A DNA stretch of 64,000 bases from Bryoerythrophyllum caledonicum (lineage: Eukaryota > Streptophyta > Bryopsida > Pottiales > Pottiaceae), in contig OZ020517.1 in assembly GCA_963971425.1 (NCBI GenBank), forward strand, positions 31,964,734 through 32,028,733, given 5' to 3'. Of this stretch, positions 14,103 through 57,156 are shown one piece after another. Made by a program: the position numbers and the translations under genes. The notes beneath the pieces are model-generated. The model did not search any database. It was not told the origin of the DNA and saw only the letters and a program-made list of their open reading frames with translations. Position 1 is the first letter of the stretch. Each line of letters starts with the position of its first letter.

Positions 14103-15510
14103 AGTCACCCGGACAAAACTATCCTCACATCTATGGTTGCAATGCTCCAGAACCGCACACAAATCACTACACTCCACAAAGTCCGAGCTCATGCTAATAT
14201 CGCCGGCAATGAACAAGCCGACAAATTAGCAAAGGAAGGAAGAGAAAAAACCCACAAGAATGCCGAACACCCATACAAACACGCCCATGCCACCCCATAT
14301 TACTTTCATAGATATGAATGGCCCTCTATGGGCGAAACTCCCGATAAAGGTCCTATACGATTCTTAGACAAATACCTCAAAAAACATGATCTTGTAAATA
14401 ACCTGGGAAAATTCACAGAAAATTTTCCCAATATTGATAAATGGACCGGCAATCCAAACATTCACAACGCACTATTCAACAGTTTTGGAAAAACCCCATA
14501 ATTACGGACCCACAAATCACATGCCTAATCAAATTCCGCACCGGACAATACATGGGAAATGCCCGCAAACAACTCTTCTTCGGAATAGAAAGATTTCCTA
14601 CAATAACATGTCCAATTTGCAACACCACAGACCCGGACACATGGCTACATGTCCTACTCAAGTGCCAAAACCCCCATATACACTCACTAATTGTCAAAAG
14701 ACATAACAAAGCCGTATCGGCTATTCGTAAACTACTTGTATCATCATCCAAATCCCGGTGCTTCATTCTCATGAATGCCGGAACCTTTAATGACAACCCA
14801 TAAGAAAACACGGTCCCGCCTTGGCTATTACCATGCATATGTTGTACTCAAAGATGCCACTGTAATGCAAGACTCAAACCGGACCTACTATGTGTTAGAG
14901 GATTATCATATAAAGATCCCCCACCAAACCATATAGACTCTAGCCTCACTATCCAATTTATTGAATTCACATATTGCAATGATAGATTCTCTCCGGACAC
15001 TATTGCAAACAAAACAAATAAATACAAACCACTTCCTGACGATATTCAAGCACTAGGATGGAAAGTAGACCCCCTCTTAGTCATCACCGCGGGTGCTAGA
15101 GCCACCACCTTCATTCCCTCAATGACAATCCTTGAAGAAACATTTAAAATTCCCATCACTTCAATCAAAAACATTTTTTCAAATATTAACATCATTGCAA
15201 TTCAACATGCTATGTCGATACTCCTGAATAAACGAAAACTTGAAAACAACCAACCCCTTCCCGACGCTTCGAACCCCCTTCCATAGATTGCTTGCATTTC
15301 ACCATACACGCCCTCCCTCTTGAAGACTTTTGGGACCTATGGTCTTTTGTTCTTGGCTACTTGTTTCTGGGTGCATAGTGTCTACATTAAAAAGGGGGAA
15401 GTAGTTCCATAGTACTAACCCATGTCCGGTGGTCATGGACTTAGTGGTGGAATGAACGGACATTTTATTTACGCCGACCCCCTCTGGAGACCAGAGTTCT
15501 TCTTCTTCTG
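14103..15510 (+). mobile_element. 5'-truncated LINE copy (RNase H, zinc motif and 3' end)
   Basis: This is a second copy of the LINE family described at 16239-29263, in the opposite orientation. It starts inside the RNase H domain (cacccggacaaaact corresponds to the SHPDQN region of the long copy). It then carries HKVRAHANIAGNEQADKLA, the zinc segment CPICNTTDPDTWLHVLLKC and the 3' untranslated part. It ends in a ttcttcttcttct tail at about 15510, as the long copy does. The frame changes at about 14495 and again later, and stops interrupt it, so it is dead. A 5' truncation is usual for target-primed reverse transcription. No clear target-site duplication was found. Confidence 0.88.
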
Positions 15511-16517: not shown

Positions 16518-19250
16518 TCAAGGAAGGTCTTGTGTATCGGGAAGGGCTTGATTGTTTTCAATTTTGCGTTTGTGTAGTAAAATAGACATGGCATATTGAG
16601 TAGCGATGGTGTTAATGTTTTTAAAGATGTTTTTAATTGTATCAATGGGTATTCTGAAGGTATCTTCTAGAGTCTTTATAGATGGCATAAAGGTGGTGGC
16701 ACGAGCGCCGGATGTGATTACAATAAGGGGGTCCACATTCCATCCGAGGGCGATGATGTCGTCAATAAGGGGTTGGTATTTATCTATTTTATTTTGGATT
16801 GTTTCCGGGGAAAATCTATCGTTGCAATATGTGAATTCAATGAATTGAATGGTGTAGTCTTGGTTGATGTTATCGGGTGGTGGGTCATTGTATGGTAAGC
16901 CTTTAACACAGAGGATGTCTGGTTTGAGCCTAGAGTTGCAATGACATCTTTGGGTCATACACGAGCATGGGAGTAGCCAAGGGGGGACCGTATTCTCTTG
17001 TGGATTATTATTATAAGTACCGGCGTTCATTAGTATAAAACATCTTGATTCATTGTAGGAGGTGATTAGCTTTCGGATTTCCCATACCGCTTTATTATGT
17101 CTTTTAACAATTAGAGAGTGTATGTGGTGGTTTTGGCATTTGAGTAGGACATGGAGCCATGTGTCGGGGTCCGTTGAGGGGCATATGGGACATGTTATGG
17201 ATGGGAATCTTTCTATACCAAAGAAGAGTAGTTTGGGAGCATTTCCCATATACTGACCCGTACGGAATTTGATGAGGCAAGTTATTTGCGAGTCTGAGAT
17301 GATGGGGTTTTTCCAAAAATTTGTAGAGAGTTCATTGTCTATGTCGTTATTGTTAGTCCATTTTTCTATGTTAGGAATATTTTCTGAAATTGTGTCAAGG
17401 TTGTTGTAGAGGTCTTGTTTTTTGAGATATTTGCCCAAAAATCTAATTGGGCCTTTGTCAAGGGTATCTTTCTTGTAAGGCCAATCTTCTTTTTGAAAGT
17501 AGTATGGGGTAGCATGGGCATGTTCGTGTGGATCTTTGGCAATTTTGTGTGTTTTTTCTCGGCCTTCTTTTGCTAGTTTGTCTGCTTGTTCGTTGCCATC
17601 AATGTTGGCATGTGCTCTCACTTTATGCAGGGTTGTGATTTGTGTACAGTTTTGTAACATTTGGACCATTGATGTTAATATGTTTTGGTCGGGGTGGCTA
17701 TTGTGAAGGGTAGGGTGTGTTATTTGAGTGTTAAGTAGGTAGAGTGCATTTATACAATCGGTGAATATATGTGCGGGTTCATCATTGTATTTTGTTGTGA
17801 TGATTTGTAGTGTTTTGTGGATGGCCATGAGTTCTGCTCTGAGGATATTTTGTAGTCCATGTAGTCTTTTGGCTAGTTTAATTTCTTTGGTAGAATTATA
17901 TATGCCATAGCCAGCTTTTTCTCTGCGCCAAGAGCCCGGGCTAATTTGTTCTGGTGGTTTAAAGGAGCCGTCGGTGTAATAACTGTATGTGGGGTTAAAT
18001 TTTGGTGTGGTATGGGTTTGGTAGTCTGGAAGAGGGGGAGGTATGGCGGAGTAGTTTAATGTGTTGTTGACATAGTTTAGTTTTGACCAGTTTTTACTTT
18101 TTTTTACAAGGGTTTGTATGGGTGTTGGTGGGGCCAATTTTGTGTATAGTCGGTGTATGCTTAGATTGTCTGTTATGGAGGTAAGTTCCGCAAGTTGTTC
18201 TAGGGAACCAAGGATTTTATTTTGATGATGGACGCATAGTATTTGTAATGTAGATGGCGCTATTCGGGGTTTTTTTAGCTTGGGTGGAATAGTAGGTTCT
18301 TCGTATGGTATTGTGTCTGCTTCAAATAGTGCAATGATATGGGAATTTGGGAATGGGTTTGGATGTTGGTTGTTGTTTTGGTACCAGTTATTGTTCGGTG
18401 TGATGATGATTGTTTTTGTATTATTTGGATCGTGTTTGGCGGCAAGTCTAGCCCAATGTATGGCTTGTTCCATGTCCTTCTCGTTGTGGGGGTGGGCTAT
18501 GCCATTACCGGTTCATTTGTAGTCAAAGGCCTTTCCTAGGGATCCAAATATTTTGTCTTTTTCATTAGGTGAGTAGAATTTTTTTAGTTTGATAGAACAT
18601 GTGACCGGGGAAGAAAAATATGATTGCTCGATATTAAAGGATGAGATCAGTGAGTCTAAAATGGGAGTGGGTATTGTGTATTGGGCATTTTTGAGGGGGT
18701 CAATTTTTGGTATTCGGTATTTATACCTTTGGTAGAGCCATATTAGTTCGGTTTCAAAGGGTTGGGTCATTGGTTCGATGTTTGTAGGAGTTTGTAACTT
18801 TGTATTATATTGATTCCATAGCCATTGGAGTCGGGTAACGGGGATGGTGTGTAAATGTCGGCCGTTCTCTTCGTATAGATGTCCTTGATTGTTATCTATT
18901 TGAATTGTGTTTGAGGATGTAAGGATATCATTTTCGGGGTTGCATTCTGTTGTGTAGATGTTTAAGAGTGGGATAATTATGGGTGGTGTTACGGATCTTG
19001 AGTCCGAGAATTGTTCTTGTGGATGATGGGCAAGGATGATATCTAAGTATATTTTGTTTTGGATCTTTTGGTAGTATTGTTTTAATTTTTCGGTGTTATG
19101 TGTGGAGGTATTGGTGTCGTGCCGTGGAAAAAGGTCTCTTTGGGGGAGCCATTTATTGTATGTATTATCATTGTGTTGCCATTGGCATAGATATTTTGTG
19201 TAGGTAGTTTGTATGTTATTTGTGTCTGTGTGTTGGATATGTTTATGATT
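16518..19250 (-). pseudogene. LINE ORF2 C-terminal part: RNase H and zinc motif
   Basis: One frame runs from upstream of 18770 down to 16518 and is broken only by TGA at 18515-18513; from the ATG at 18473 it is open for 651 codons. RNase HI residues are visible: YTDGS (near 17970), RAELMAI, FTDCINAL, and HANIDGNEQADKLA. A zinc-like segment follows, CPICPSTDPDTWLHVLLKC with a nearby His (about 17110-17200). This is typical of the C-terminus of LINEs that carry RNase H. RNase H removes the RNA strand after reverse transcription. The 19210-19550 stretch is in another frame, so at least one shift separates it from the RT. Confidence 0.88.
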
Positions 19251-19581: not shown

Positions 19582-21621
19582 TTAGTTCAAAATATTTTTT
19601 GAGAGGAGTTTTTGTAGAAGCTTTTGGGAGAGTTGGGCATTGAGTGTGTTATGATTTAATGTTTCTTGGCGCCATAGTATTTCTAGTGTTGTTGGATTAG
19701 TGAGGAAGTTCGGGAGCGTACTTTTAAGGTGGGCTTTAGCTATATGTTTTAATAAGAAGAATGTTCGTGTTATTGGTGATCTTATGCAGTCACTTTTTTT
19801 AATTCTTGGTATGTCTTCGGCGCCACCATATTGGGCAAGGACATAGTGAGTTAATCCATTATATATTTTTCCAAGCCTTCCTTTATCGTTTATAGCATTT
19901 TGCAGTTGTTCGCCTATACATCGGAGGTATGCGTTTTTGAGGGAGAAAGCTTCAAGTCCAAATAGGTTATGTGGTAGTTGAGTTATTGCGTTTGACATAC
20001 ATTTTGGTAATCCACATATGGCTTTTTCTATGGCTATTATTTTTTTATCAAGTTTTTTGATAGCTGGCATAGAGTATGGTACACCGTAGAAACTGTATGC
20101 CACACCTAGGCGTAGTACGGTATCAACCATTTTTATTTTTTGTTTCATGGTGGTTGGACATGTTAGTTCTTTGCATTGTTTGAAGAGTTTCGTCGTTGTG
20201 GTGTGGATTTGGATTTTCCATTTTAGTGAGGGAACAAGGTTTGTGCCTAAGTATATGTATGGTTCATTTTGGTGTAGTATGGGGATTGGTTGATTGCGGT
20301 AATTGATGTTCGAGGCTTGCATTAGGGCTTTGAAAGTGGTTGGATTCAATTTGGATTTGTTTGGGCATCCGGTAGCGGCACATTTTGGGACACCTACGTC
20401 CATACCGGCCCATTTACAATATCTATCAATTTTGTTTAGTTGTATTTGGATTGATTTGATTTTGTTAGTTATGGTGGCTAGGTCATCCACGTATGCGGCA
20501 GAGTTTATTATGACTTGTGATGTGCCAAAAGTGTACCCGTAATTGCCTCTTTCTAGCCATCTGAGTAGTGGTTCTAGAAATATAATGAATAGGTATGGGG
20601 TGAGAGTGTCCCCTTGTATAGTTCCTCTTTGGATGGGAATAGGTTTTGTTTTCCCAAAGTGTTCACCGGTATAACAAGTAGATGATTTAGAATAGATGTT
20701 TCCAACAAGTGTGGTTGCATCTTTTGGGTAAGCTAGGTCCATCATTATTGTTAGAAGTCGGGCATGGTCTATTGAGCCAAAGGCATTTTTGAAGTCCACG
20801 TATAGTATGTATATATGTTGGTTAGTAAACTTTGCGTCCTCTAGTGCGGCTATTATAGTTTGTATTTGTCGTGCGGTACTTCTCTTTGCTCTAAATCCTT
20901 CTTGACTATCATGTAGGATTTTGAATTTTTCGCCGTATGAGGATAGTATGGAGGTGAGTGTACTGGTAAAGAGTTTGTATATTGTGTTAGCTAGTGCAAT
21001 TGGTCTATGATTGGGTAGCATGGATGGATCGCCTTTTTTGTATAATAGGATTGTTGTACTCAATTTCCATGAGTTTGGTATCTGTTTTTGTTTATAGCAG
21101 TGGGAGAAGAATAGAAATAATAGCTTATGAAATCTTGGAGGCATGTTTTTGAGTATTGAGTTTGATATGCGGTCTGGGCCTGGAGCTTTATTATTTCCAA
21201 GATTTTGAAGGCATGTGTCGTATGTGGCTCTGTTGAGGTATTTATGTAGTGGAATTTCTGGTTCACCCCGTTTGTCAAGGGTATATCCGTCCAGGTCGTG
21301 CCATGGGTATTGGCGTACTGCACATGTGCATTCTATTGTATGTTGTGGTTGGTAATTACATGTTGGTATTGTTGGTCTATTGGTTTTTGTTTGTTGGTTA
21401 AATATTTCATTCGCAATATCTTCGGGGCTAGTTAGAATATTATTATATTGATCTGTGATACAATCCATTGGTGGGGATTCAAGGTTTTTAAAGACTATTT
21501 TGTTAATTTTTTTGGGGGTCATTTCATATAGTTGTCTATATTTTGAGATGGCTTTTTTAATGTTTTCTTTGGTATATTTTGTGATTATTTTCCGGGCTTG
21601 TATGTTGACATTTTTTTGCAA
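19582..21621 (-). pseudogene. LINE ORF2 central part: reverse transcriptase
   Basis: An open frame of 679 codons starts within an A run at 21621, one base out of phase with the endonuclease frame. It contains standard non-LTR RT blocks: NKAPGPDRISNSILK, NHRPIALANTIYKL, DSQEGFRAKRSTARQ, YVDFKNAFGSIDH (motif A), QRGTIQGDTLTPYLF (motif B) and AAYVDDLATI (motif C, bases 20482-20493). All catalytic aspartates are present. The one-base shift in the run of seven A at about 21613-21619 looks like slippage: removing one A would give a continuous phase. This domain primes cDNA synthesis from nicked target DNA. Confidence 0.93.
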
Positions 21622-22905
21622 TTAGCGCGATATCTTTTATCCATATATCGTGGGGAAGGTCCAGAGGTGGCGGGGTAGGGATTTGGATGTGTTGTAGAGT
21701 TAGTAGTTCATTGTTTATGGGGTGGTTTCGCCATTGAGGGTTGTTTTTTACAATTCTAATGGTTTTGCGTATGGTATGGTATGTGATTAGGTGTTGTTTC
21801 CAAGTTTTAGAAAGTTTGCGGGGTAGGTATCCGCCTTGTTGAGAAGTTCTACTTGTCATTTGGGGTATTGGATGTGCTCTACAGGTTTGTTCTAGTGTAT
21901 CGGAGATTTTATTGATGAGTTTGTCTAGGGTGTGGCATGCTTCTTGCCATTGAGCTTGTGTTAATTGACTATTGTTTTCAAGAGTGTCTATGAGGGAGTC
22001 TATTTGTACGGAGTTTTCTTTGAAGAATTTTGTGTTGAATTTTTCTATGTTGGTTTTTGGGATGGGGTTGAGTATGCGTATAGTGTCTTTGTTTAGGATT
22101 ATAGGAGTTCTACTAATTAGTGTGTTATTTGGGATGTGCAATTGTACGGGTGAATGGTCCGAGTTGAGAATAATATCTTTGTTTGTTGTGGAGGTGTATT
22201 GTGTATTGTTGTTTGTATTTATATAGAATCCATCTATTAGACTCCAATCGCTATAATTATAGCCACCTTGTCTAGAGAATTGTTTATCGGTATTGATATA
22301 AGTGAAGTTTAAGTGTTCTGTGAAGCGACGCCATTGGTAATCAATGTTTTGAGGGGGGGTGTGCTGGTTTCCATTTTGGCGGCCAATTAACGCTATGTCT
22401 CTGTTGAAGTCTTCGCATAATAGGTATGTATGATTGGGATTATTATTAATTTGGGATGTAATAGTGTTTTGTATATCTAAGAGAAATCTAGTATCATCGG
22501 GGTGGGATGGCATATACATGTGAAAGATTAACCACGGTTGTAGTGGGTGGTTAGTGATTTTAATTATTTGAATGTATGGTGATATGTGCATTGGGGTAGG
22601 AATTTTATTGATGTTGCCTGGGAATGTATATTTTTTGTGTATTAATGTGAGTAGGCCACCTCGGCCCGGAGTGTATGGTCTCCGTTGTTGCATGCATCTT
22701 GTAAGTGTATGTGTATTGTTAAAGATGAGTTTATAGTTTTGAAATATATTTTGTATATATTTTGTGGATTTTGTGGCGGTTAGTTTTGTTTCTTGTATAA
22801 CTATGAGGGCCGGTGGTGTGTCTGTGTTTGTGACTAATGTTTGTAAGCTAGGAAGGGAAGTGTTTAATGAGGAGGCATTCTATGTGATTATGTATGTTTT
22901 TTCTT
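21557..22905 (-). pseudogene. LINE ORF2: APE-type endonuclease
   Basis: The frame from about 22905 to 21557 is continuous with the upstream 2A-containing frame except for a TAG at 22881-22879, which stands where many APE domains have Trp (TYIIT-stop-NASSLN). Visible APE signatures are IVIQETKLT (metal-binding Glu), CEDFNRDIA, SLIDGFYIN and LNSDHSPVQLHI (terminal Asp-His). The region between the endonuclease core and the RT is a ~150-residue linker. The family function is nicking of target DNA. Confidence 0.88.
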
Positions 22906-24270
22906 GGTTTGATCTAATGTTTTGATTTTGAGGAGGGATGTAGGGAAGAGGTGGGGGTGGATGGGTGTATTCTAGTATAGGATCTAGACATTTTAGTGAT
23001 TCATTTATGAGGTTGTTAGGGAGGTAAGGGAATTTTAGTTTTATTGTATCATTTGAGGGTGGTATATCTTGACTATGTAAGAAGTCGTATAATCTTTTAT
23101 GTATTGAGTTCTCGTGGTTTATAATATTTTGATCGTCTACTAGGAATTTAGTATAGGGGTGTGGAGTGTAAATGTGTCGTTCTGGTGGGTTTTGTAAGTT
23201 TAGTAGAGTTTGTAGAAGTGTATTGGTCCATGCTATTGTGTGCATATTTTGTGGATTTAGTAGATGATTACATTCATCTATGTTTGGATGAGTAGTGATT
23301 ATGAGTGCATAAAGAATGTGGGGTGGTGGGTGCGTATTTTTTTGTTGTATGTATTGGGCAATGTTTAGGTGTGTAGTGTTATGTGTATGGTGTAATGTAT
23401 GTGTGTTTTTAAAAAAAGGTGCAAAGGGTTTTGCAATGTGTCCATATTCCGGTTGTAGTTTTATGGTATTAGGTATAAAGTATACTTTGGCATTTTTCTT
23501 ATGTGATGTAGGGTGTCTTTTTAGTATATTTGGCATGGGTCCAGGGTTGGTTTCTATGTCTCCGCCTAGGAGTAGTAGTAGTTTGTGATATGTATGTTTA
23601 GTGTTGTATTTTAGAGTTTTTATTTTTTGTATAGTAAATATTTGGGGTATTGTTATGTTATTGAAGATTTGTTTGTTTGAGGAGGAGTGGGTGTTGATAT
23701 TTTGTATGTGGATAATGTGTTTTATTTTTATAGTGGATGTATTTGTATTTGTCCTTATCATTTTTTGTGTCCATGTGTTTATTTGCGTATTTATTTTTGT
23801 TTTATTAATGTTGTATAGGTGTGTGTATGTTTGTTTGGATACTTTTTTGGTAGTGTATGTGCGTGTATGTGTGTTTGGTTTTATGTTGGTGTTCATACTT
23901 AGTATTATTGTTTTGTGGTAGATGGGTTTTTCGTTGGGCATGGGTCTCGGGTTGGTTTCTACATCTCCGCTTAACATTAATAAGTTTTTATAGTGTAAGG
24001 GTTTGTAGTGTTGATTTTGTGTTGTTGATTTGTGTGTGTATTGGAGTTTGTCAATAAGTTGTTGATGTGATATGAGTGTGATTCTAAGAAGAGGGGCAAA
24101 TTTTTGGGTGGTGTGTTCGTATTCGGGTTGTAGTTTTACGGTATTTGGTATGAAATGTGTTTTGGCCTTCTTTTTGTGCAAAGTGGAGTGTCTTTTTAAT
24201 ACGTTTGGCATTGGTCCCGGGTTAGTCTCTATGTCCCCTCCAAATCTTATTTTGTAGTAGGTGGGTTTTT
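22880..24270 (-). CDS. LINE ORF2 N-terminal part with three tandem 2A-like motifs
   Basis: This frame is in phase with the endonuclease. It contains GGDIETNPGP (24241-24212), SGDVETNPRP (23971-23942) and GGDIETNPGP (23566-23537). The consensus of 2A/CHYSEL ribosome-skipping peptides is D(V/I)ExNPGP after a hydrophobic stretch, which the second and third have (LLMLS, LLLLLG). The first and third motifs are each followed by a related segment (MPN(V/I)LKRH..., FIPNT(V/I)KLQPEY), 675 bp apart, so a module was duplicated. The middle motif has NPRP and is expected to be inactive. If functional, skipping would release short Thr/Lys/His-rich peptides ahead of the endonuclease-RT. 2A peptides are known at LINE ORF N-termini in trypanosomes and some animals. 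Confidence 0.8.
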
Positions 24271-25231
24271 TTGTTTTGTTTCGGAATTTTTTGTTTTTGT
24301 ATGTGGTTTTGGTATTGAATTTTTTGTTTAATTGGTTGTATGTATTTGCCTTTGTATGTGTGTGTGTATGTGTGTATTTCTTTGATGGCGTATGGTTATC
24401 TTTGTATATGTGTGTGTTTGTGCAATTTTATTTGATTTTGTATGTTCTTTTATTTTGGTTTTTGTATCTATATTCGTGTCAATATTTGTGGTATTATGTT
24501 TATCAATATTTGTACTATTGTTCGTATTAGTATTTATATCGGTTTTTTTTAATTTATGTTTGTATTAGTATTGGTATAAGTATTCGTTTTAGTATGCTTG
24601 TCTGTGTACGTACCAGTATATATACCAATATATGTACAAGTATAAGTATCAATATACATACTAGTATAAGTATCAATATACGTATCGAGGTACGTATCAG
24701 TATATGTGCCAACATACGTGCCAGTATACGTACTAGTGTATTTATTAGTATATGTATTAGTGTTTGTAATAGTATTTGAACCAGTAGAAATACTAGTATA
24801 TGCGGCAGCGTATGTACTAATATTTGTACTAGTATGTGTGTTATATTTTGTACTAAATGTTGTATAGTATAGCAATAATTTAAGTTTTGTGTATAATTTA
24901 CAATGTATTCTTTTGTTGGAGGTGTGTTTTATTTTATGAAAGGTACAATAATTTTTGGTATAGTATTGAGTATAATCTTTGAGGTATTTGGTATAGTATT
25001 TGTATTGAATGTAGTATTGAATACAGTATTTGTATTTTGTATAGTTCCATACAGGGTGTTTTCTATATATTCTAATAAGGTGTATGTATTGTGTACGGTG
25101 TGCTAGTTTTGTATTTGTATATTTGTATGCTATTATGTATTTGACTAAATTTCTATATGAATACTCTACTCTGTACCGTATTTTGTAGTAAGTTATGAAA
25201 TGGATATGTTTTGCTATGTGGTCCTTGGAGC
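24271..25231 (-). repeat. low-complexity linker between LINE ORF1 and ORF2, with 12-bp repeats
   Basis: From about 24590 to 24800 the plus strand repeats variants of a 12-bp unit such as agtatatgtacc, giving a Thr/Tyr-rich open frame (25235-24549) on the LINE strand. That frame starts one base before the ORF1 stop and has no ATG start, so it may be only a by-product of the repeat. T-rich plus-strand sequence with no domain fills the remainder. Confidence 0.65.
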
Positions 25232-26653
25232 TCACATGTTTGGCTGGTTTTCTTCAATCCTTGCATTGTTGACTCTTCCCGTGAATGCTCTCATACTTTG
25301 GAGGGTGGCTAGCATTGATTCTTGGATGCACTCCATTTGTGTCTTCAATTCGTCATGTAGTTTGTCGGTGTACTCCTTGTTCTCTTGCCTTAGTTTCTTG
25401 TTGTTCTCCTCCAATAACTCCACTATGTCCTTCTTGGTGATGTGCTCGTTCTTCTCTTGCATGTTGAACGTGGTGATGGTGTTGACAATTGCGGTGTTGA
25501 TGTCTTCAAACCCAAACTCTTTGACTTGTTCGGCGGTAGGAGGGTCCACCCCCTCTAGGCTCCTTCTATGTGGTGCGAAGTCCACAAAGCTTCCTCCAAT
25601 TTCGTGAGTCTTCTTCTCAAAAGTCCTATATACTATGGGGTTAGCACAAAGGACATTGGCACTACCATTGTGGTGAGTGCCATTGTCCCGGTGGAACCAA
25701 ATAGATCGAACATTAGTACCTCCCATGACTTTGTATATAGCATGGGTAGTGTTTGCAAGGTCTAAGCGGATAGGAAGAGGAGATAAGGTGAGTGTTAGAG
25801 CATCCTTTCTAGACTTAGTTTCGAAAATACCTTTTGGTCCTTTGATGTCAAGGACTTGTCTTGCTTGCAAGACTTCACTTCGCATGGTGATGTGATGTGC
25901 TAGTATCTTCTTCATTTGTTGAGGAGTGGTGGCAATAACAAAGGCGTGTGAATCACCCTTCCCTTTTTGGACGCCCGAAATCTCAAACTTGTGGCCGCCG
26001 TGGAAGCTATTGTCAAGTATCTCCTTAAAGAGTACTTGAGCGGATACTCCTATCAAAGTGTCACACTTGATCTTCACGGAAAAGTTAGATCCTTTGGCAA
26101 TACTATGGTAAGACTTGCACACTTTCCCAACTACACATTCATCATCGATGGTTAGAATAAAGGGTCTAAGGCCCTTGAGTAGCATTAGTCCATCAATCTT
26201 TGGTTTAAGGAGATGTAACTTAATGTTTCCGGCCCAAACCCCTTTGGTTTTCCCATTCTTAATACTTAAGTATTGTATGGCAATTGGATCAATGAGGTCC
26301 ACTCCTAGTGCAATGTCCATTTTCTTAAGTCTCTCTTCAACCATTTTTTTTACTACATCATGCATGAGTGGGTTTTTAGGTGTTTCAAAGAAGATGGCAA
26401 TGTGAAAGTCAAGGGAGAGGCCAGAATTCTCACAAGTTTCTATGTCAAAGGGAACCTGGGTGATGTTGAAATGTTGGCCCGTTCCATCGCTTGTTGCCAT
26501 AGGGTAGAGTAGTTGTGGGATTCGGGGGAAGGACACCCTTGCCTTGCATACCTCCATAGCCTCATCCGTCTTCATACCCCGTGTGACCATGTCCTCTATG
26601 GATTCGCCGCTATACAATTTGTCGGCATCGTCTTCCACCGCTAATGTCTCCAT
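25232..26653 (-). CDS. LINE ORF1, putative RNA-binding coiled-coil protein (473 aa)
   Basis: An intact frame starts at ATG 26653 (an in-frame TAA at 26701-26699 lies just upstream) and ends at TGA 25234-25232. It lies on the LINE strand upstream of ORF2, where ORF1 is expected. Residues ~310-375 (IYKVMGGTNVRSIWFHR ... GSANVLC ... FVDFAPH) could be an RRM-like fold. Residues ~390-455 (KKDIVELLEENNKKLRQENKEY) form a convincing coiled coil, as in many ORF1 proteins that trimerise and bind LINE RNA. No zinc knuckle is seen. It is undamaged, unlike ORF2. The RNA-binding role is inferred from position and layout. Confidence 0.72.
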   Translation of the reverse strand: METLAVEDDADKLYSGESIEDMVTRGMKTDEAMEVCKARVSFPRIPQLLYPMATSDGTGQHFNITQVPFDIETCENSGLSLDFHIAIFFETPKNPLMHDVVKKMVEERLKKMDIALGVDLIDPIAIQYLSIKNGKTKGVWAGNIKLHLLKPKIDGLMLLKGLRPFILTIDDECVVGKVCKSYHSIAKGSNFSVKIKCDTLIGVSAQVLFKEILDNSFHGGHKFEISGVQKGKGDSHAFVIATTPQQMKKILAHHITMRSEVLQARQVLDIKGPKGIFETKSRKDALTLTLSPLPIRLDLANTTHAIYKVMGGTNVRSIWFHRDNGTHHNGSANVLCANPIVYRTFEKKTHEIGGSFVDFAPHRRSLEGVDPPTAEQVKEFGFEDINTAIVNTITTFNMQEKNEHITKKDIVELLEENNKKLRQENKEYTDKLHDELKTQMECIQESMLATLQSMRAFTGRVNNARIEENQPNM

Positions 26654-29263
26654 GTCTTGAAAACCCAACCAAAATTTAAACTTCGCAAATTTTGGTTCTT
26701 AGAGTGGCTTACTTTTATTTGTGAGCGAGATTTTGCTCTTCTTGTGGCTGTTGGCTTCTGCTGTGCCCTTCTGTGGTGCTCTAATGGGACTTTCTTCTAC
26801 GCCCTCCATATCTTCGTTGCTGTAGCTAGTCCTCCTAGAATTCCTTGTCATGGTTGGGCTAAAGCAAGTTGGGGGGTCTTTGGGGCTGTGTGGGAGGTCG
26901 TAGTGGCAGCTTGAGGGGTCGTTATAGCACTCAGGGGGGTCGTTGGAGCACTTCGGAGGGTCGCTGGGGCACTTTGGGGGGTCGTTGTAGGGAGTAGGGG
27001 GGTTGCAAGCGGGGTTTGTGGTGTCGCAGGTGAGTTTTGCAGGTTCTAAGTGGGGGGTCGTAAGTCTACGTCGTGCAGTACCTGTGAGGGGTCTGTTGGT
27101 TGAAGGCTGGAAGGGGAAGTGTGGGAGGGGACGTGGGTCTTGTTGAGAGAGTAGAGGAGAGGGGCAGAGGGAGAGGGAGGCCTAAGGGTTATGAGGCGGG
27201 GGTGGAGAGGGGTAGTCTGGGTGGCCTGTTGAGACGCTGCGAGGGGGAGGAGAGGAGCGGGGGAAGAGTGAGGTCTGTAGGTTGCTAGGTGGGGGTGGAG
27301 AGGGGAAGTCTGGGGTGAGCTGCTGGGTTGCTGCGGGGAGGAGGGGAGAGGAGCAAGGGGAGAAGGAGGCCTGCGGGTTGTGAGGTAGGGGTGGAGAGGG
27401 GAAGTCCGGGGTGATTAACTGCGTTGCTGCGATGGGGTTGAGGAGGGTGGTCTGCTGTGATGTTGTGGGGGGGTTGGGGTGTGAAGACGAGATCGGGGGA
27501 ATAGTCGATAGAGTCGATGGGGGGGAGTCGGAGGGGAGGGGGGGAGTCTGTTGTGTGTCTATGGGTGAGTCGGGGTGGGGGGGCGATGTCGGAGAATTGG
27601 GATCAGGAGGGAGGGTGGGGGTTCTTTGTGTTTCTACGAGGTCCGCAGTCAATGTTGGGGGGTCTAGATCTAGAGGAAGGGAGGTATTTTGTACCATTTC
27701 TGCGAGGGAGTCTGAGAGCGAGGTCGGGGAGTTTGGGGAGGTCTGCTTCGTCTCTATTGGAAGGCTGGGAAGCAAGGTCGGGGGATCAGGATCAAGGGGG
27801 AGGGAGGGAGTACGTTGTGTCTCTGCGGGGAGGTCTACGAACAAGGTCGGGGGGTCGGGATTGGGAGAAAGGGGGGGGGGTTTGCTGTGTTTCAACTGCG
27901 GAGTCTGAGGGTAAGGTCGGGGGGTCGGGATCAGGAGGGAGGGCGTTGAAGATCTGGGGAGAGGATAGATAGGGTTGGGGAGTCGGGAGGAGGAGGGAAG
28001 ATCTGCTGTATCTCTGTGGGGGAGAACGGCGTGTGTAGGCTGAGCATGTTAGGGTTTTGGGGCAGTGTGTGTGTAGGGGTGGGCGTGAGGGGATTCTGGG
28101 GGAAAGCTCTGCTAGGATTTGGGGGTGTTATAGGGAAGTTCTGCGGGGAGTCTCCGCGAGGGATCTAATCTGCTGCAGGGAGGTTCTACCTAGAGGTTCT
28201 GCACGGCAGGTTTTTGTTTGGCTCAGGTACGTGCATTCCTCTCTATCTTTTTTTCTCACGGGTTTTTTTCTGTGGATTTTATAGTGGTGCGGGGGGGGGG
28301 TCTACAGGGAGGTTTTGCGGAGGTTGCTGTCTGGTTGGGGTTTGGTTTATCAGGCACTATTGGAAGATTCTGCGGGGAGGTTCTAATGATGATGGTAAGT
28401 GGGAGAGAGGTGGAGGTTTTTGTGCTAAGGGTGGACTTGCTAATGGAACATAAACGGAAATGAGAATGTAGATTGGCAAGAGGCGTACCTGGATCCGGTA
28501 GAGTTGATGTTCCTTGTTGCTTGCGCAGATATGATGTCGTGCGTGATGAACTCCACGACTTGGAAGCGGCAGCTGATGTTGTGCGTGATGAACTCCACGA
28601 CTTGGGAGCGGCAAGTGGTGTGCGTGGTGTGCTTCGCGGTATTTTGATAGTAGCAGCTGCTTCACATCTTCGAAAGGCAGCTCTGTTGTTGTTACAACTA
28701 AGTTTTTTAATAAAGCACAGAGATTTGCATACACGATTGCATGATGTGGTAATAAAATCAGATCCTAATAACAAGAGATTGTATGTACTAGAAGGGTGAG
28801 GGGTAGTCTCTAATGGTGCGTTGGAGCTGCATAGCAGCAGTGCTAGGAGATGCCTTCGTGCAATCTTGATACTTGAGATCCTTAGTGAGGGAGGGGAGAC
28901 TTGGAGAGGAGGGATTCAGATCTGGTCCCGGTGCTCCAGATCTAGGATGGGTTGTTTTCTGTCTAGACTAAGTGGTTGCAGATTTGTCCCCAACACTAAG
29001 TTCCCCGCTTCAGAGCATACTTGCACAAATCTGTACCTTCTTAGGTCAGATACAAACTACCCTCCTCAGATCTGGTGTTGAGCCATCCAACATATGTTTT
29101 GCATCTAAAATCTCTCCAAACTACCACAGATCTGCTTACTACGAGGGCTCACAATAGAGCTAGCCAACTCCTATTGCACGCAATTTTGCAGTCACAGGCT
29201 AAGTCCCCACCTCCCTCACTAGGAAAAACGGAGCTCACTCACTCATTCTGAGACAACTTGTTT
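26654..29263 (-). other. LINE 5' leader with G/C-skewed minisatellites
   Basis: The plus strand is extremely G-rich (C-rich on the LINE strand). About 26910-27000 repeats a ~27-bp gggtcgttggagcactt unit, and 27180-27960 holds diverged ~66-75-bp units that would read as Pro-rich peptide without an ATG. A 42-bp duplication (gtgcgtgatgaactccacga) lies at about 28537-28620. The 5' end is fixed by the target-site duplication at 29264. An unusually long leader of 2.6 kb may hold the internal promoter. No coding function is claimed. Confidence 0.7.
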
Positions 29264-38155: not shown

Positions 38156-39066
38156 ATGGCAGACACAAACACCAAGCCTGGCGACGAGGTCACATTCCCG
38201 AAGCACCTGTGTGACAAAGAGAGCAGGGAGCTCCGCACCGCCATCTACGACGACTGGAAGCGAAAAGCAATCAACGACGCCAAGTTCTGCGCATGCGACC
38301 AGCATGTCGACTATCCAACATTCGCAAACCTGGTATGCCCAAGTCCCAGATCTCTCGTGTGCAAACAACAGAGCTCGGATACTAACGATCGTCATGCTTT
38401 AAGGTTTCTGTGGCGCATCTGAAGCCGGTGGAGCGGAAGACACCAGGCGAAGAGTTTGCCGAAGGGGCGCACGTCTACAAAGGAACCGCAGAGCCGTCAT
38501 GGTCATTCGATGGTGCAGGCGCGGAGAAGGAGGAGGAAGATGGAATCCCGGCATTGCTAGGGTTGGGGAAACCTGGCGCATTTCCGGAGAGGAAGCTCAC
38601 AGACACGGAGTTTGCGAAGCACTGGCGGCGCCTGAACGAGGACGTGTTTCTGCAGATGGCGTTTCTGACTGGAATCGACCCGGCAGACTTCTCCGAGATG
38701 TTCAAGGTGGAGGTTCCACCGAACCTGCTTGCGGAGATGCTGGCCACCATCTGCACGTGCTTACGCGCGGGAGAGAACGCGCGCGCGAATACGGACCGGC
38801 AGCGCCTCCTGCGCGCGGCGTGCGCTCGGGACGTGGACGAGAATTGGGCCGTGAACATGCTGGAAGCCATGTCGCAGTGCGGCCGCTTCTCTCTCGCGAT
38901 CGGATTCATTGGCGAGCAGACTCGCGCCATGGTGCGCGCGCTCCTCTCGCACCTCGTCGACTCGCCGTGGTGCGCTGCAGATGGGGAAACCGTCGTCTCC
39001 TCCTCTCGCCTCTCACGCATCCAGAAAATCAGAGAAGTGTACAGATTGCAAGCTAAACCTTCATAA
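38156..39066 (+). CDS. CCDC103: CCDC103 / DNAAF19, axonemal dynein arm assembly factor
   Basis: Two exons (38156-38332 and 38404-39066), split by a 71-bp GT-AG intron in phase 0, encode 279 residues. The N-terminal helix ends in FANLVSVAHLKPVERK, which matches the ASHLKPLERK hallmark of animal CCDC103. The C-terminal half (FAKHWRRL, PPNLLAEMLATICTCL, VNMLEAMSQCGRFSLAI) matches the helical RPAP3_C-like domain of that family. In animals the protein is an oligomeric, microtubule-binding factor needed for dynein arm attachment; mutations cause immotile cilia. Its presence suggests the host makes motile flagella, probably sperm. The coding sequence is intact and GC-rich compared with the surroundings. 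Confidence 0.92.
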
Positions 39067-43724: not shown

Positions 43725-46700
43725 CTACTCCACAGAATTTAAGGCTGCTTGCAAACGGTCGTCATCGATAGCTTCGGTTTGCATTGCAATATATTGTAGT
43801 ATGTGAGCCTTTGCCGATTGAAGAATGCGAATCCTGCTTTCAACTTGCACTCCAAATACATTGCGCTTTCTCCACCCGCTCGCCCCAGACATGGTTCTTT
43901 CCAGTGTGTCTACCCATGAAAAAATGCATGCATCTTTCTCTACCCAACTATGGCTCTCCCCAGATGGCTCCCAGAATGAATCCATGCAATTTGCATATCG
44001 TTGTGCAGAAGACCCATGTCCATCAGCAACCCCCCTTTGGATGATGGGCCAATACCAACAAACCTTAATCTTAAGTCTCCATCGGTTTTTTCCTTCCTCA
44101 ATCACTTTCCCCACATAGAATGGTACACCGCCTTCTATCTCTGCTTGATCAACACTCAAGGCTACAAACTGTCCACAACGGATATCAGATTGTGGATTAA
44201 ATGGTGGAAATGGGTCGTGATTACCTTCATACATTGCTCCTTCTTCGGCGCGTTCCTCAACATAGTTACGCTCTGTTTGTTGTGCCCTACGCACTGCTTG
44301 ATTAGAGGGTCTTCCTCTACGATGACCAAAGTATCCTCGAGCCTCGGCATTTGGAAGCATGGCCACTACCTGCTCTACAACATCTATCTCGCGATTTTCT
44401 TCACTTGCACCATCCATTACATCCAAAGATGTGCTCCCTGTAGGTCCGGTGTTGGAGAACTCTGAAGGCCAAAACGGTGAGGAACGATGCTCATTGCTAC
44501 GGTCTTTATGTGGAAATTCAGCTAAATAGAGTTTCAATCTTTCAGCCTCTATTTTTGCCTCACGATTCTTGTCCTCATGCTGCAACCTTTGGATGCACCT
44601 TTCTTTATATACAATGAAGTCATCCAACGCCTTCAACTCCCGTTCATCCGCTCCAAATACTTCCGCAAACGCTGGTCGTTCATCCCTACTTGGCAACGAC
44701 CTCAAAGTTTTCGTCCCTGCCTCCGGTCCCCATGGATCCTTGCAATAATGCTTGTGTTGTACTCGAACCACACGAGTCCCTTCTCGATTGTCCATATAGA
44801 ATCGCATGTGGTGCGGAAATGTTATGCCCACCAATGAATCCTGACCTGTCAGTAAGTGAGGAGTTATAAACAATTTCCAATCCCATACATTCTCTAGCAG
44901 CCGGGCGCTAACAAATGCCTCTGTAGGGGATGTTCCTCGTTCTATAAGACTCATCATTTCCTTCAACGAATCCACGTCCGACCTCTTCAACGTATTTGAT
45001 ATACAACTGAAGCGTTGATCAATATCTTCGTGTGTATGGCCCACTATAAGAAAAGATAGTTCCACCTCCTGAAAAAACCCCAATCCCACCAATGTAGCAC
45101 ATAGAGCAAACATATAAATGTTTTTGTTCTCACGCGTGCAGTTGTCGGCCTGAATCCGCAATGTTGGTGGCAAAAAGCCCCTCCTCCGCAGCACATCTCC
45201 TATCACGTACAACAATGTACTCACGACTTGGTTGCTATCGTGTTTGTGGTGAGCCCCGAACCACACGTCGCAATATAAACCAATCCCATGTACAAGAGCA
45301 CCACACAAATGGGTCTTCACAAACCGGTGTTCAATGTTCTTCACAGTCTGACGCATCCTCGGTACCATAGTCGTGTTTTGATCCATGCCATCCACTATGA
45401 TGCACATGTACAACTCAGGGCTAATATAACACGACCTCTTGAATATCCAATAATGCCTACGTTCTTCCATTTGGTTGCGTAGATGCAACATAAACAACTC
45501 CTTTATCTTTATCCTTGCATCCGCATTGGTGGTTCCCTCCATGGCACATTTATACTCCCAACAATGATAACACTTTGAGAATCTCGAGAATGGAGGTACC
45601 TGAACGTGGGGATACTTGATGCGCCACATCCTCCGAAACGAACTCATAGAAATGGTTTCTCCAATACAAATTCTCTTGACCTCCTCGTTCACGTAATTGA
45701 ATACATCAAATTTGGCTGTATTCATAGGAAGGAGAATGAGAGGCACCACTTCGTTGTCACTCTTACGGCGAATACAACGATGAGGTTGAGGACAACCAGC
45801 TTCATCGACAAACGATTTAAAGCAAGCCTCTGCTGCAGACATTCTAGTACTCTCTCTTATCGGATCTGAAAGGGTATTGCCGTGAATTGATGTCACTCTT
45901 CCATATATTAGACAGTCCTTCTTCAATTGCTTAAAGCGCCTCTGTGAATATCCAACCCCAAGAGCGTAGCAAGCATTGCAAACTTCTTTCCCATCTAACT
46001 TTGTTACAAACTTGTCTCGACGAGTTCCTTCCGTCCTTGTGTAAAAAGAAACCAGCATCTGTCTCATCCACGTACTTCGAACTGAAAACTCACTACCCCA
46101 TGCATTATATCGCATGTCCAATAGATACCTTGCTGGAACATCCCTCAAACAATTGCGTTTGCATCCTCCTTGTGCCATTGCAATTTGCACGCTTCTAAGC
46201 GATACCTTAGATGGTGCAGCTTCTGTCAATGATGGCTCCCTTGAATCTCTCCTTCTCCTATTTTGCATAGAATATGGACGTCGTGCTGGTCTAACATAAG
46301 CAAATCCATCTACATGGGGCAAATCTTGGATATTTGAGGGAGTAGATTGGGAAAACGGCGAATTTTCATCTATGGCGTTTGAAGCATGACTACTGCGTCG
46401 AGACCTCTGGGTGGATCCTGGTGTGTTGATGAACTCAGGAAAATCAAATTCTGGGGCCATCACTTCTACAGGCGCTATCTGTGATCCAACGTCACCATGG
46501 ACACTTGTGATATCAGGTTCTACAGCCACTACACGTAGCAAAGATCGATGCCAACGAATGATCAAGCCCACACACATGCCAAGGCGTTCTCCTACAATCT
46601 CTCCGGTCCAATGCAATGCATCATCTACCCTAATGATACGCACCGCCACCTCGAATGGGAACAACTTCGATCCATTCAATTCCATGCCACTTTTGAATGC

Positions 46701-46916
46701 ATGCTCCCTGGTTGCTAAGCCCACCACATCTCCTCTTTCTGAAAGCAATTCTACTGCCCTTTCCAATTCAGAAGTCATGATCCCAACAGATCTCTGTTGA
46801 ATTCGCCTTGCACGTGCTGCTCGTACTAATCGGGCCCCCACAGAGCTATTAGAAGGCATATTGTCCCTTTCGATGTGTGGCCGTATCAAAGGAGTCTGAA
46901 TCGTGCGGCTCTCCAT
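43725..46916 (-). CDS. DUF7869-type DDE transposase-like protein, intact
   Basis: A single uninterrupted frame encodes 1063 residues from ATG 46916; an earlier ATG at 46955 would add 13, but a tttttcaatag acceptor-like sequence lies between. In the 1076-residue numbering, a basic N-terminal half holds GKEVCNACYALGVGYSQRRFKQLKKD (~322-347) and a CYHCWEYKC zinc-like motif (462-470). The core has IIVDGMDQN (519-527), RIQADNCTRENKN (600-612) and VGHTHEDIDQRF (638-649). These Asp/Glu positions look like a DDE/RNase H-fold triad. I know this layout as a widespread uncharacterised family in bryophytes, charophytes and some animals. It is intronless and undamaged, so it is either a recently active transposon or a kept host gene. 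The C-terminal ~200 residues include a GQFVALSVDQ/ KVIEEG small beta-rich region. Confidence 0.75.
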   Translation of the reverse strand: MESRTIQTPLIRPHIERDNMPSNSSVGARLVRAARARRIQQRSVGIMTSELERAVELLSERGDVVGLATREHAFKSGMELNGSKLFPFEVAVRIIRVDDALHWTGEIVGERLGMCVGLIIRWHRSLLRVVAVEPDITSVHGDVGSQIAPVEVMAPEFDFPEFINTPGSTQRSRRSSHASNAIDENSPFSQSTPSNIQDLPHVDGFAYVRPARRPYSMQNRRRRDSREPSLTEAAPSKVSLRSVQIAMAQGGCKRNCLRDVPARYLLDMRYNAWGSEFSVRSTWMRQMLVSFYTRTEGTRRDKFVTKLDGKEVCNACYALGVGYSQRRFKQLKKDCLIYGRVTSIHGNTLSDPIRESTRMSAAEACFKSFVDEAGCPQPHRCIRRKSDNEVVPLILLPMNTAKFDVFNYVNEEVKRICIGETISMSSFRRMWRIKYPHVQVPPFSRFSKCYHCWEYKCAMEGTTNADARIKIKELFMLHLRNQMEERRHYWIFKRSCYISPELYMCIIVDGMDQNTTMVPRMRQTVKNIEHRFVKTHLCGALVHGIGLYCDVWFGAHHKHDSNQVVSTLLYVIGDVLRRRGFLPPTLRIQADNCTRENKNIYMFALCATLVGLGFFQEVELSFLIVGHTHEDIDQRFSCISNTLKRSDVDSLKEMMSLIERGTSPTEAFVSARLLENVWDWKLFITPHLLTGQDSLVGITFPHHMRFYMDNREGTRVVRVQHKHYCKDPWGPEAGTKTLRSLPSRDERPAFAEVFGADERELKALDDFIVYKERCIQRLQHEDKNREAKIEAERLKLYLAEFPHKDRSNEHRSSPFWPSEFSNTGPTGSTSLDVMDGASEENREIDVVEQVVAMLPNAEARGYFGHRRGRPSNQAVRRAQQTERNYVEERAEEGAMYEGNHDPFPPFNPQSDIRCGQFVALSVDQAEIEGGVPFYVGKVIEEGKNRWRLKIKVCWYWPIIQRGVADGHGSSAQRYANCMDSFWEPSGESHSWVEKDACIFSWVDTLERTMSGASGWRKRNVFGVQVESRIRILQSAKAHILQYIAMQTEAIDDDRLQAALNSVE

Positions 46917-47138
46917 TATCACTATTGAAAAAATAGGAACATTATGGCTGCACATTAGTCAAAATACATGTATTAATTGTTAACCTTCAAATCACCATTC
47001 ATCTGATAAAAGGTATGTTTCTAAACACATATTTACTGTTCAAAATATGATGATGATATTGTATCTTTTGATAAAACTGCTTTGAAATGAGAAAATTAAG
47101 AATTTTTAGAACATGAACTCTTTGCACGGAGTCTTTAA

Positions 47139-55204: not shown

Positions 55205-56563
55205 GTGAGCGCTCACGAGCTCGCGCGTAATCGAGGTATGGTTGATCTCTCTTGAGGTGCTGGAGCTGCTATGTGTCTGTTGGTGTGACTTCATCGGGGG
55301 AACTTGGTGGGTTTGAGCGGGAAGGCGGCATCGAGGGGGAGTGCCAGCGAAAGGTACGGGCCGGTTTCAGTCAAGAGCCGTGCCGCTGCGGAGCCCGTGC
55401 CGGGACAGGGCTAGAAAATTTTGGAGCGGGCAGATCTCCCATTCATCACGATCATCCAGGACCCCACGCGAGGTAAGTCCCAGCGTGGGGACGTCCTGTC
55501 CGCGCCCGACCGACCCTGGGTCTGTGTATGAAAGCCAAGGTCAACAAGGGCCGTTTCTGAGGCTCTAGACCAATCAAATTGCGATTAGCAATGTGCCTTT
55601 AGACACTTGGTCGGTGTGTGAAACCATAATTCATTGAGGCCTAAACCAGTTTGTCTCTTCAAACCCCAATCGAGGACCCCGCGTGTGTAGCAACATTACC
55701 GGGTTCAGCACCAAATGAAGGACATCTAGTCTCATATGCGTGACCTTCCTACACATGGCATCCCCGTACATCGCCCATAACTCCCGCTGTGTATGCCAGT
55801 TCTTCTCAATTGCCAACAATTTAGGGTCTATGTTGGGGTTTGGTATCGTTAACCGGAGTTACGCCATAGAGTTTTTGCTAGAACTTGTTTCTGGATGTGG
55901 ATATGGAGGTCATCGTTCTGATGTGGAGTGACGTTTGAGACTTGACCTGTGGGAGGGGTTTGGGTCAGAATTCTGGATGTGCAGTTGGAGGTCGTCGATC
56001 TGATTCGTGCTGTTTCAGATTCGGCGGAAGCTTTGAACTTGTCTCTAACGAAATTAGTTTAGGTTGTGTGCAGGGCTGCTGTCGAGGACTGGGACAGAAG
56101 GAGAAGAATCTTCTTAACAAGGTGTCTCGGAGGTAGGCGAAGAGAGCCGACTTCACTAACTAGATCCTCAACGGGTGGTACGTTATGTTTCTTGGGGTAG
56201 TCTCATCGCCGTCTCATAGTCAACTCAAACGCAGTCAGCTATTTGAAGCGAAGGGTATCTGTTGTGCAGCAAAATCCTGGTTTTCGATTGTTCTGATCAA
56301 CATTGTTTGTTATTTTGGGGAACCAGGGTTTGGGCTCAAGTTCTATCAACCTCAAGTTGTTGGAGCTAACTATCATCCGAAGTTGTACGTTCGTGACTCT
56401 TTCAGCTTCATACGTGAGGAACAATATATGGATACGAGACTACAGGGCTTTGCCTCGGACATCTTTTCTGTTATTATGGCACTGCTTGTCCTTACGGGTC
56501 TCTTCATCCTCTCAACCCGTTGTAATGTGTGGGTGGCTTGAATAGTCGAACTTCCGAGGCGCA
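55205..56563. other. spacer between LRR exon and small two-exon gene
   Basis: No gene was recognised. The stretch 55745-55885 is a duplicate of 40241-40390 (annotated there). The last few hundred bases are likely the promoter and 5' UTR of the gene at 56564. Confidence 0.5.
55745..55885 (+). repeat. ~140-bp sequence duplicated from/to 40241-40390
   Basis: It starts cacatggcatccccgtacatc and matches the minus strand of 40241-40390. It may be a copied piece of the 5' region of the LYR gene. Confidence 0.6.
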
Positions 56564-57156
56564 ATGTCGAACTGCACTGTGTTAACTAATCAGTCCGGCG
56601 GCCCCTTGGAGGTGAAAGAAGGAACTGCGGGAGTTTGGCGAAACCTGAAAATTCTTAAAAACAATGAGGTATACAACATCAATGTTGATCCGAACGCAAC
56701 GTATTGTGAATATTGGTGTGCGGTGAAAGAGAATGGACCTGGTGAGTTGTACATCAGTTCGGTTGACTGTCAGGAGTGCGGGTCGGTCATAGTCCAGAGA
56801 CAGAACGGGACATACCATCTTGTGAAAAATCGACGGAACGATACAGGAAATGACGCTGTTCAGAAAGCAAATGACGCCAAGACACAGGATGGCTTTTTTG
56901 CGAAGGCGAAGAAGATTCTTATATCCAAGCTCTATAAAGGTAATGGATGGTTTGGCAACACTTGGCAATCTCATTCAGAGCCTTGTTACTTGGAGCGATT
57001 CTGTAAATCCAGGCTGATCATCTGGGTCTTAAGAGATGATTACATTTCATTGTCATTGTGGAGCTGACTATGATGTTCGTGTTCTTGGTTCTAGGGTCAA
57101 CTTCCACGAAGTCCACAGAAAATCAGGAATCTGGCTTTTTCAATGATCTAAAGTGA
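56564..57156 (+). CDS. small two-exon protein with VDPNATY motif (DUF7748-like)
   Basis: Exon 1 (56564-56939) and exon 2 (57095-57156) have GT-AG borders and join in phase; the product is 145 residues. The N-terminal domain reads SNCTVLTNQSGGPLEVKEG, then NVDPNATYCEYWCAV and ISSVDCQECGSVIVQ, a compact beta-rich pattern that I associate with a small uncharacterised plant family (DUF7748). The C-terminal third is Lys/Asn-rich and polar. There is no signal peptide or membrane segment. The coding sequence is intact. The function is unknown. Confidence 0.65.

Follow-up and report, generated by a model that had tools for sequence, protein, structure and literature searches.

Organization of the element in the window

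The window, i.e. the whole 64-kb stretch of DNA that was analysed, harbors a LINE on its minus strand. Furthest upstream of the parts identified is an ORF1-like open frame of 488 codons (25232..26698), for which no Pfam family scored above the cut-off. The end of ORF1 is overlapped by a leader segment of ORF2 (24549..25253), an open frame of 234 codons rich in Tyr, Thr and Asn that contains 12-nt periodic repeats (24592..24843; repeat family D1, spacing 12). All three 2A-like motifs are located in a 515-codon open frame (22880..24427), which in this copy differs in frame from the leader segment and is closed by an in-frame stop just ahead of the APE-type endonuclease block (21557..22879). The latter gave a weak match below the cut-off (PF14529, E=0.0057), while the endonuclease of the open relatives L012 and L025 was assigned to PF03372 above the cut-off. 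The reverse transcriptase (RT) block (19582..21621; PF00078, E=1.2e-25) lies in another frame in the window copy; RNase H and a C-terminal domain occupy positions 16518..18512 (PF00075, E=1.4e-13). Since PF03372 and PF00078 were both found above the cut-off in L025, APE endonuclease and RT are combined in one ORF, as is typical of a LINE. Due to the in-frame stop before the endonuclease and the position of RT and leader segment in other frames, the window copy has to be regarded as damaged. Within the overall explanation given below, whose likelihood it shares, there is good reason to believe that the element is a degenerate member of a LINE family that is very abundant and was active recently, and that comprises APE endonuclease, RT, RNase H and the C-terminal domain.

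In the C-terminal domain, a CCHC-like stretch and a PD...E motif were read by eye (16818..17192). This stretch is a candidate restriction-like endonuclease, as judged from the motifs; the PDB provided no support for such a domain, and a profile built from two copies matched no R2 chain there. Beside the main element, an inverted piece of a second copy of the LINE C-terminal domain, 74% identical, was detected at 14804-15283 on the plus strand.

The three 2A-like motifs

In the six-frame translation of the 64 kb, the D.E.NP.P motif turned up exactly three times. The three occurrences share one frame of the minus strand and are spaced 270 and 405 nt apart (675 nt in total). The original prediction of two GGDIETNPGP motifs and one SGDVETNPRP motif in the same LINE frame upstream of the endonuclease was thereby confirmed. 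Motif 1 (KIRFGG-DIETNPGP, core 24212-24235) possesses an intact octamer but has lost the leucine-rich context of its relatives, and its module is akin to another subfamily. In motif 2 (LLMLSG-DVETNPRP, core 23942-23965), Arg replaces the essential Gly and the motif is predicted to be dead. Motif 3 (LLLLGG-DIETNPGP-MPN, core 23537-23560) is proximal to the endonuclease and represents the conserved site of the family.

According to PMC12846837, the StopGo octamer (D/G/C/N)(V/I)ExNPGP is accompanied by a set of upstream classes, one of which is L-rich, ends with (A/S/C)G and has D at p12. The paper also states that changing the characteristic upstream residues abolished activity almost completely in nearly every case tested. 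Motifs 1 and 3 agree with the core octamer, whereas motif 2 (NPRP) does not; the L-rich hexapeptide is present in motif 3 (LLLLGG, together with D at p12) and motif 2 (LLMLSG) and absent from motif 1 (KIRFGG). Probably only the last of the three signals in the window works. With the L-rich class (LLLLSG-like, motifs 2/6 of PMC12846837), the 2A described here shares the octamer D(V/I)ExNPGP, G at p11, the L-rich hexapeptide and the location in an open frame, the difference being that it is carried by a LINE and that the genome is plant-like.

Two further loci, L002 and L003, carry the triple arrangement. In the order window, L002 and L003, motif 1 reads NPGP, NLGP and NPGP, motif 2 reads NPRP, NSGP and NPGP, and motif 3 reads NPGP throughout. 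A single open frame of 658 codons spans the leader through all three motifs in the sister L003. Its three octamers are intact, yet two of the motifs have Arg at p11.

Abundance of the family

The 437-Mb host genome was searched with a degenerate motif pattern that lets certain dead forms through as well, e.g. NPRP. It matched at 1,086 + 1,011 (2,097) places, compared to 2 + 0 for the reversed pattern used as control. Chance as the source of the motifs was therefore rejected. Among the first 100 matches listed, 85 showed an intact NPGP, written with 41 different DNA spellings, and nine tandem pairs were found, eight of them with a dead upstream DMETNPRP and one with both motifs intact. A single motif was also the usual state in 20 loci corresponding to the first matches on contig C1; four of them (L012, L021, L023 and L024) contained two. 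The proposed tandem set, with its 2A-like motifs sharing a single open frame of a LINE, probably of the plant lineage, does exist at this locus, but it is not the rule for the family, since most sampled loci have a single motif.

For the single-2A subfamily represented by L025, 40 matches were scored, and 36 of them (query included) reached the score of the identical query over 885 nt. A protein search with the C-terminus yielded 8,900 first-look candidates, 144 of which were scored, all with 92-100% identity; 15 of these 144 have the same uninterrupted frame of 2,809 codons. High copy number together with near-identical copies, as expected for a LINE, is thus a property of the family. No relative was found when viral contigs were scanned with the RT.

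Conservation of the endonuclease-proximal motif

From the 144 C-terminal matches, 20 open copies were taken by their C-terminus and long open frame, not by the motif. LLLLGG-DIETNPGP-MPN occurred in 20/20 of them within two codons of the predicted position, a count to which the selection for long frames contributes in part and which does not represent independent events, as the sites are related by descent. Four open copies (L064, L065, L012 and L025), the first two of which had been identified independently of the motif, were compared pairwise. For core plus MPN, pN was 0.000 in 6/6 pairs, while pS amounted to 0.43-0.71 in five pairs and to 0 in the sixth. The pN/pS ratios of these copies were 0.08-0.20 in the endonuclease and 0.02-0.09 in the RT. 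For the 20 residues ahead of the core they ranged from 0.22 to 0.99, indicating weak constraint in some pairs.

A similar picture emerged from 19 representative proximal sites obtained by collapsing 30 sequences at 95%. MPN is invariant, and the Gly is present in 19/19 sites, where it is written with three codons. pN/pS was 0.02 in the core, a value biased to some extent by the fact that the motif had served to find most loci. In the three core columns less affected by this bias it was 0.07, and in the following MPN 0. It was 0.46 in the six residues before the core, 0.68 further upstream and 0.42 downstream. By these substitution patterns, the proximal motif is under purifying selection. The expectation that NPGP would be kept at positions 1 and 3 with synonymous drift is thus borne out for the proximal site, whose amino acids are conserved while synonymous positions drift, and failed for position 1, where one of the three copies of the triple family has NLGP.

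The leader of ORF2

In L064, the frame of ORF2 starts to overlap with the last part of ORF1 and continues for 460 codons to SGDIETNPGP, which is followed by 2,342 codons of enzyme; the first in-frame AUG is situated approximately 155 nt past the ORF1 stop. The ORF2 leader of L065 (219-4467) exceeds 1,400 codons and contains several in-frame copies of a repeat of roughly 37 residues. In all four open copies, the coding frame of the leader is free of stops (0), whereas the other two sense frames contain 13-137. In second-order Markov sequences of matching composition (200 simulations each), the minimum over frames was at least 1, 55, 27 and 10 stops for L064, L065, L012 and L025, respectively. 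When reading this comparison, it should be considered that open frames were one reason for choosing these copies, which accounts for part of the leader openness, and that repeats cut the number of independent codons. The leader evolves rapidly, pN/pS being 0.54-0.76 in five pairs and 2.1 in the closest pair. The open frames suggest that the leader is probably translated.

As a lead only, an AUG overlapping the ORF1 stop (AUGA) and possibly serving as a site of ORF2 reinitiation was noticed in L009, L014 and L028. Coupling of this kind (UAAUG/AUGA) was not seen in the other loci compared.

Origin of the array and fate of the upstream motifs

To explain the array, a duplication of a module of approximately 675 bp within one element had been suggested. 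A repeat at 675-nt spacing indeed exists, and the octamers of motifs 1 and 3 are identical. However, the module around motif 1 (24063..24302) and that around motif 3 (23388..23632), both on the minus strand, are only 71% identical over 246 nt, while module 1 is 83-86% identical to the single-2A modules of L028, L014, L013 and L009. In a tree of 58 modules, module 3 was placed inside a clade of 29 rows (support 96/95) and module 1 outside of it, together with the L009 type (88/66, a weak support). Module 2 grouped with L016, L017, L018 and L020 (98/97). Because of these identities and the differing tree groups, the array is better described as a mosaic, and a simple tandem duplication is very improbable. 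It looks like leader segments of different subfamilies have been joined in frame, as far as can be judged from the modules. Recombination of subfamilies is also suggested by pS, which shifts abruptly along open copies; between L064 and L065, synonymous divergence falls from 0.55 in the linker to 0.09 in the RT. The clearest case is L077, whose upstream 314 nt have matches of 88-95% identity at 38 other places. Of 40 places scored, two showed the joined form with two 2As, namely L077 itself and its sister L086, and an upstream-type module like that of L077 resides in L087, a single-2A element. A true local duplication was found in L034, where it is out of frame.

A different question is how many of the stacked motifs are active. 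Two or more 2As per ORF might each mediate skipping and give rise to additional short leader proteins, as in picornaviruses, for which multiple 2As per polyprotein are established (PMC11512398). This reading can draw on the fact that not every array decays. L077 has an open frame of 2857 codons with two intact, in-frame motifs in L-rich context, 324 nt apart, and both octamers are kept in L086, which shares the join. L043 contains two intact motifs 510 nt apart, and the three octamers of L003 have been mentioned. On the other hand, the L077 join is restricted to the two places given above, and L003 has the Arg residues at p11. Among 20 loci collected for their DNA similarity to the window segment, with the window itself counted as one, the octamer was intact in 16/20 proximal and 5/16 recognisable upstream sites (Fisher p=0.006, with loci that are related by descent and hence not independent events); in L040, the intact proximal octamer is followed by a frameshift. 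In an amplified two-motif subfamily with 40 full-length matches of 98-100% identity, the motifs are 510 nt apart with no stops between them. Of 20 copies inspected, 19 have DMETNPRP and one DMETNSRP upstream, so that this site is dead in 20/20, a form representing one inherited event, whereas the proximal DIETNPGP is present in 20/20. The form of L043 with both motifs intact is likely the older state of this subfamily. In view of the mostly degenerate upstream sites, a serial functional array is unlikely. It is slightly less doubtful, but still rather unlikely, that in certain copies (L077 and L086, L043, the progenitor of the triple family) two or three functional 2As act one after the other. 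ORF2 would then yield several leader proteins plus the enzyme, and the 2A would be a modular N-terminal insulator allowing 5′ leaders to be swapped and stacked. At the other extreme, the motifs may be passive, i.e. a conserved peptide with another role (e.g. nucleic-acid binding or a localisation signal) that does not cause skipping. Such a peptide would suit the conservation of MPN beyond the core, since these residues are not known to be required for 2A activity, but the invariant residues are those of the StopGo octamer, accompanied by G at p11 and the L-rich hexapeptide described in the literature, and there is hardly any likelihood left for this interpretation.

Proposed function and comparison with known systems

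The explanation that we consider quite likely, on the basis of the sequence comparisons, is that a single proximal 2A frees the enzyme from the leader and that the stacked upstream 2As are relics of leader joins. In open copies, ORF2 would consist of a long, repeat-rich and fast-evolving leader, one 2A (StopGo) and approximately 2,340 residues of enzyme. The ribosome would read the leader, skip the Gly-Pro bond at the proximal 2A and release an enzyme with N-terminal Pro-Met-Pro-Asn. Because skipping resets the N-terminus of the enzyme, the leader would be free to change. Leaders of other subfamilies, each equipped with its own 2A, may have been joined repeatedly in frame at the 5′ side, possibly by recombination or template switching, whereupon the upstream 2As would be redundant and decay. 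For the stack in the window, module 1 would stem from one subfamily and module 2 from another, while module 3 would be the native site. Both the skipping at the proximal 2A and the translation of the leader in a plant are inferred here.

2A-bearing non-LTR retrotransposons include L1Tc/ingi of trypanosomes and APE-type elements of animals, the latter reportedly treated by Odon et al. in 2013. Like in these elements, the 2A of the window family is in frame with and upstream of the APE endonuclease-RT. What separates the family from them is the long, repeat-rich leader before the 2A (approximately 460 to more than 1,400 codons in L064 and L065) and the tandem mosaic 2As. The Dualen/RandI LINEs of green algae possess APE, RT, RNase H and a restriction-like endonuclease. 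The window family resembles them by its APE, its RT and the RNase H following the RT, and the C-terminal CCHC and PD...E motifs look similar by eye. Among PDB chains, its RT scored best with R2. A 2A is not known from Dualen.

Both the occurrence of 2As in non-LTR elements and that of tandem 2As in picornaviruses are documented (PMC4981915 and PMC11512398). Multiple-2A picornaviruses also have several 2As per ORF, whose number varies by insertion and deletion. They differ in that the 2As belong to viral polyproteins and several are active in vitro, while the upstream copies described here are mostly degenerate. Seven putative 2As are reportedly described in PMC13149134. Natural use of 2A by plant viruses is not reported in the relevant sections of PMC12846837. 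A literature search restricted to CC-licensed PMC papers retrieved no report of a 2A in a plant LINE, and none of a LINE in a plant-like genome that combines a 2A with a long leader and mosaic 2A stacks; such elements may already be included in the work of Rao et al. 2025, which deals with eukaryotic 2As.

The data suggest a large-scale natural use of ribosome skipping in a genome of the plant lineage. A conceivable reason for skipping is the separation of a hypervariable leader from the enzymes, and the stacked dead 2As would then be a record of past leader captures. With its open, near-identical copies and natural pairs of intact and dead motifs, the family constitutes a ready test set for the context rules of StopGo in plant ribosomes.

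Other features of the window and the assembly

Apart from the LINE, a 1077-codon open frame on the minus strand (43725-46958) matched DUF7869 (E=1.3e-50) and probably encodes another mobile-element protein. On the plus strand, an open frame at 56546-57067 matched DUF7748 (E=5.3e-20), and an RPAP3_C domain (E=4.6e-14) is contained in an open frame at 38386-39066. Three plastid-type rbcL frames are present in the assembly (contigs C821, C590 and C894), which makes a host of the green lineage likely. The rbcL frames L041 and L042 (contigs C821 and C590) differ at several residues, pointing to two plastid genomes or a mixed sample.
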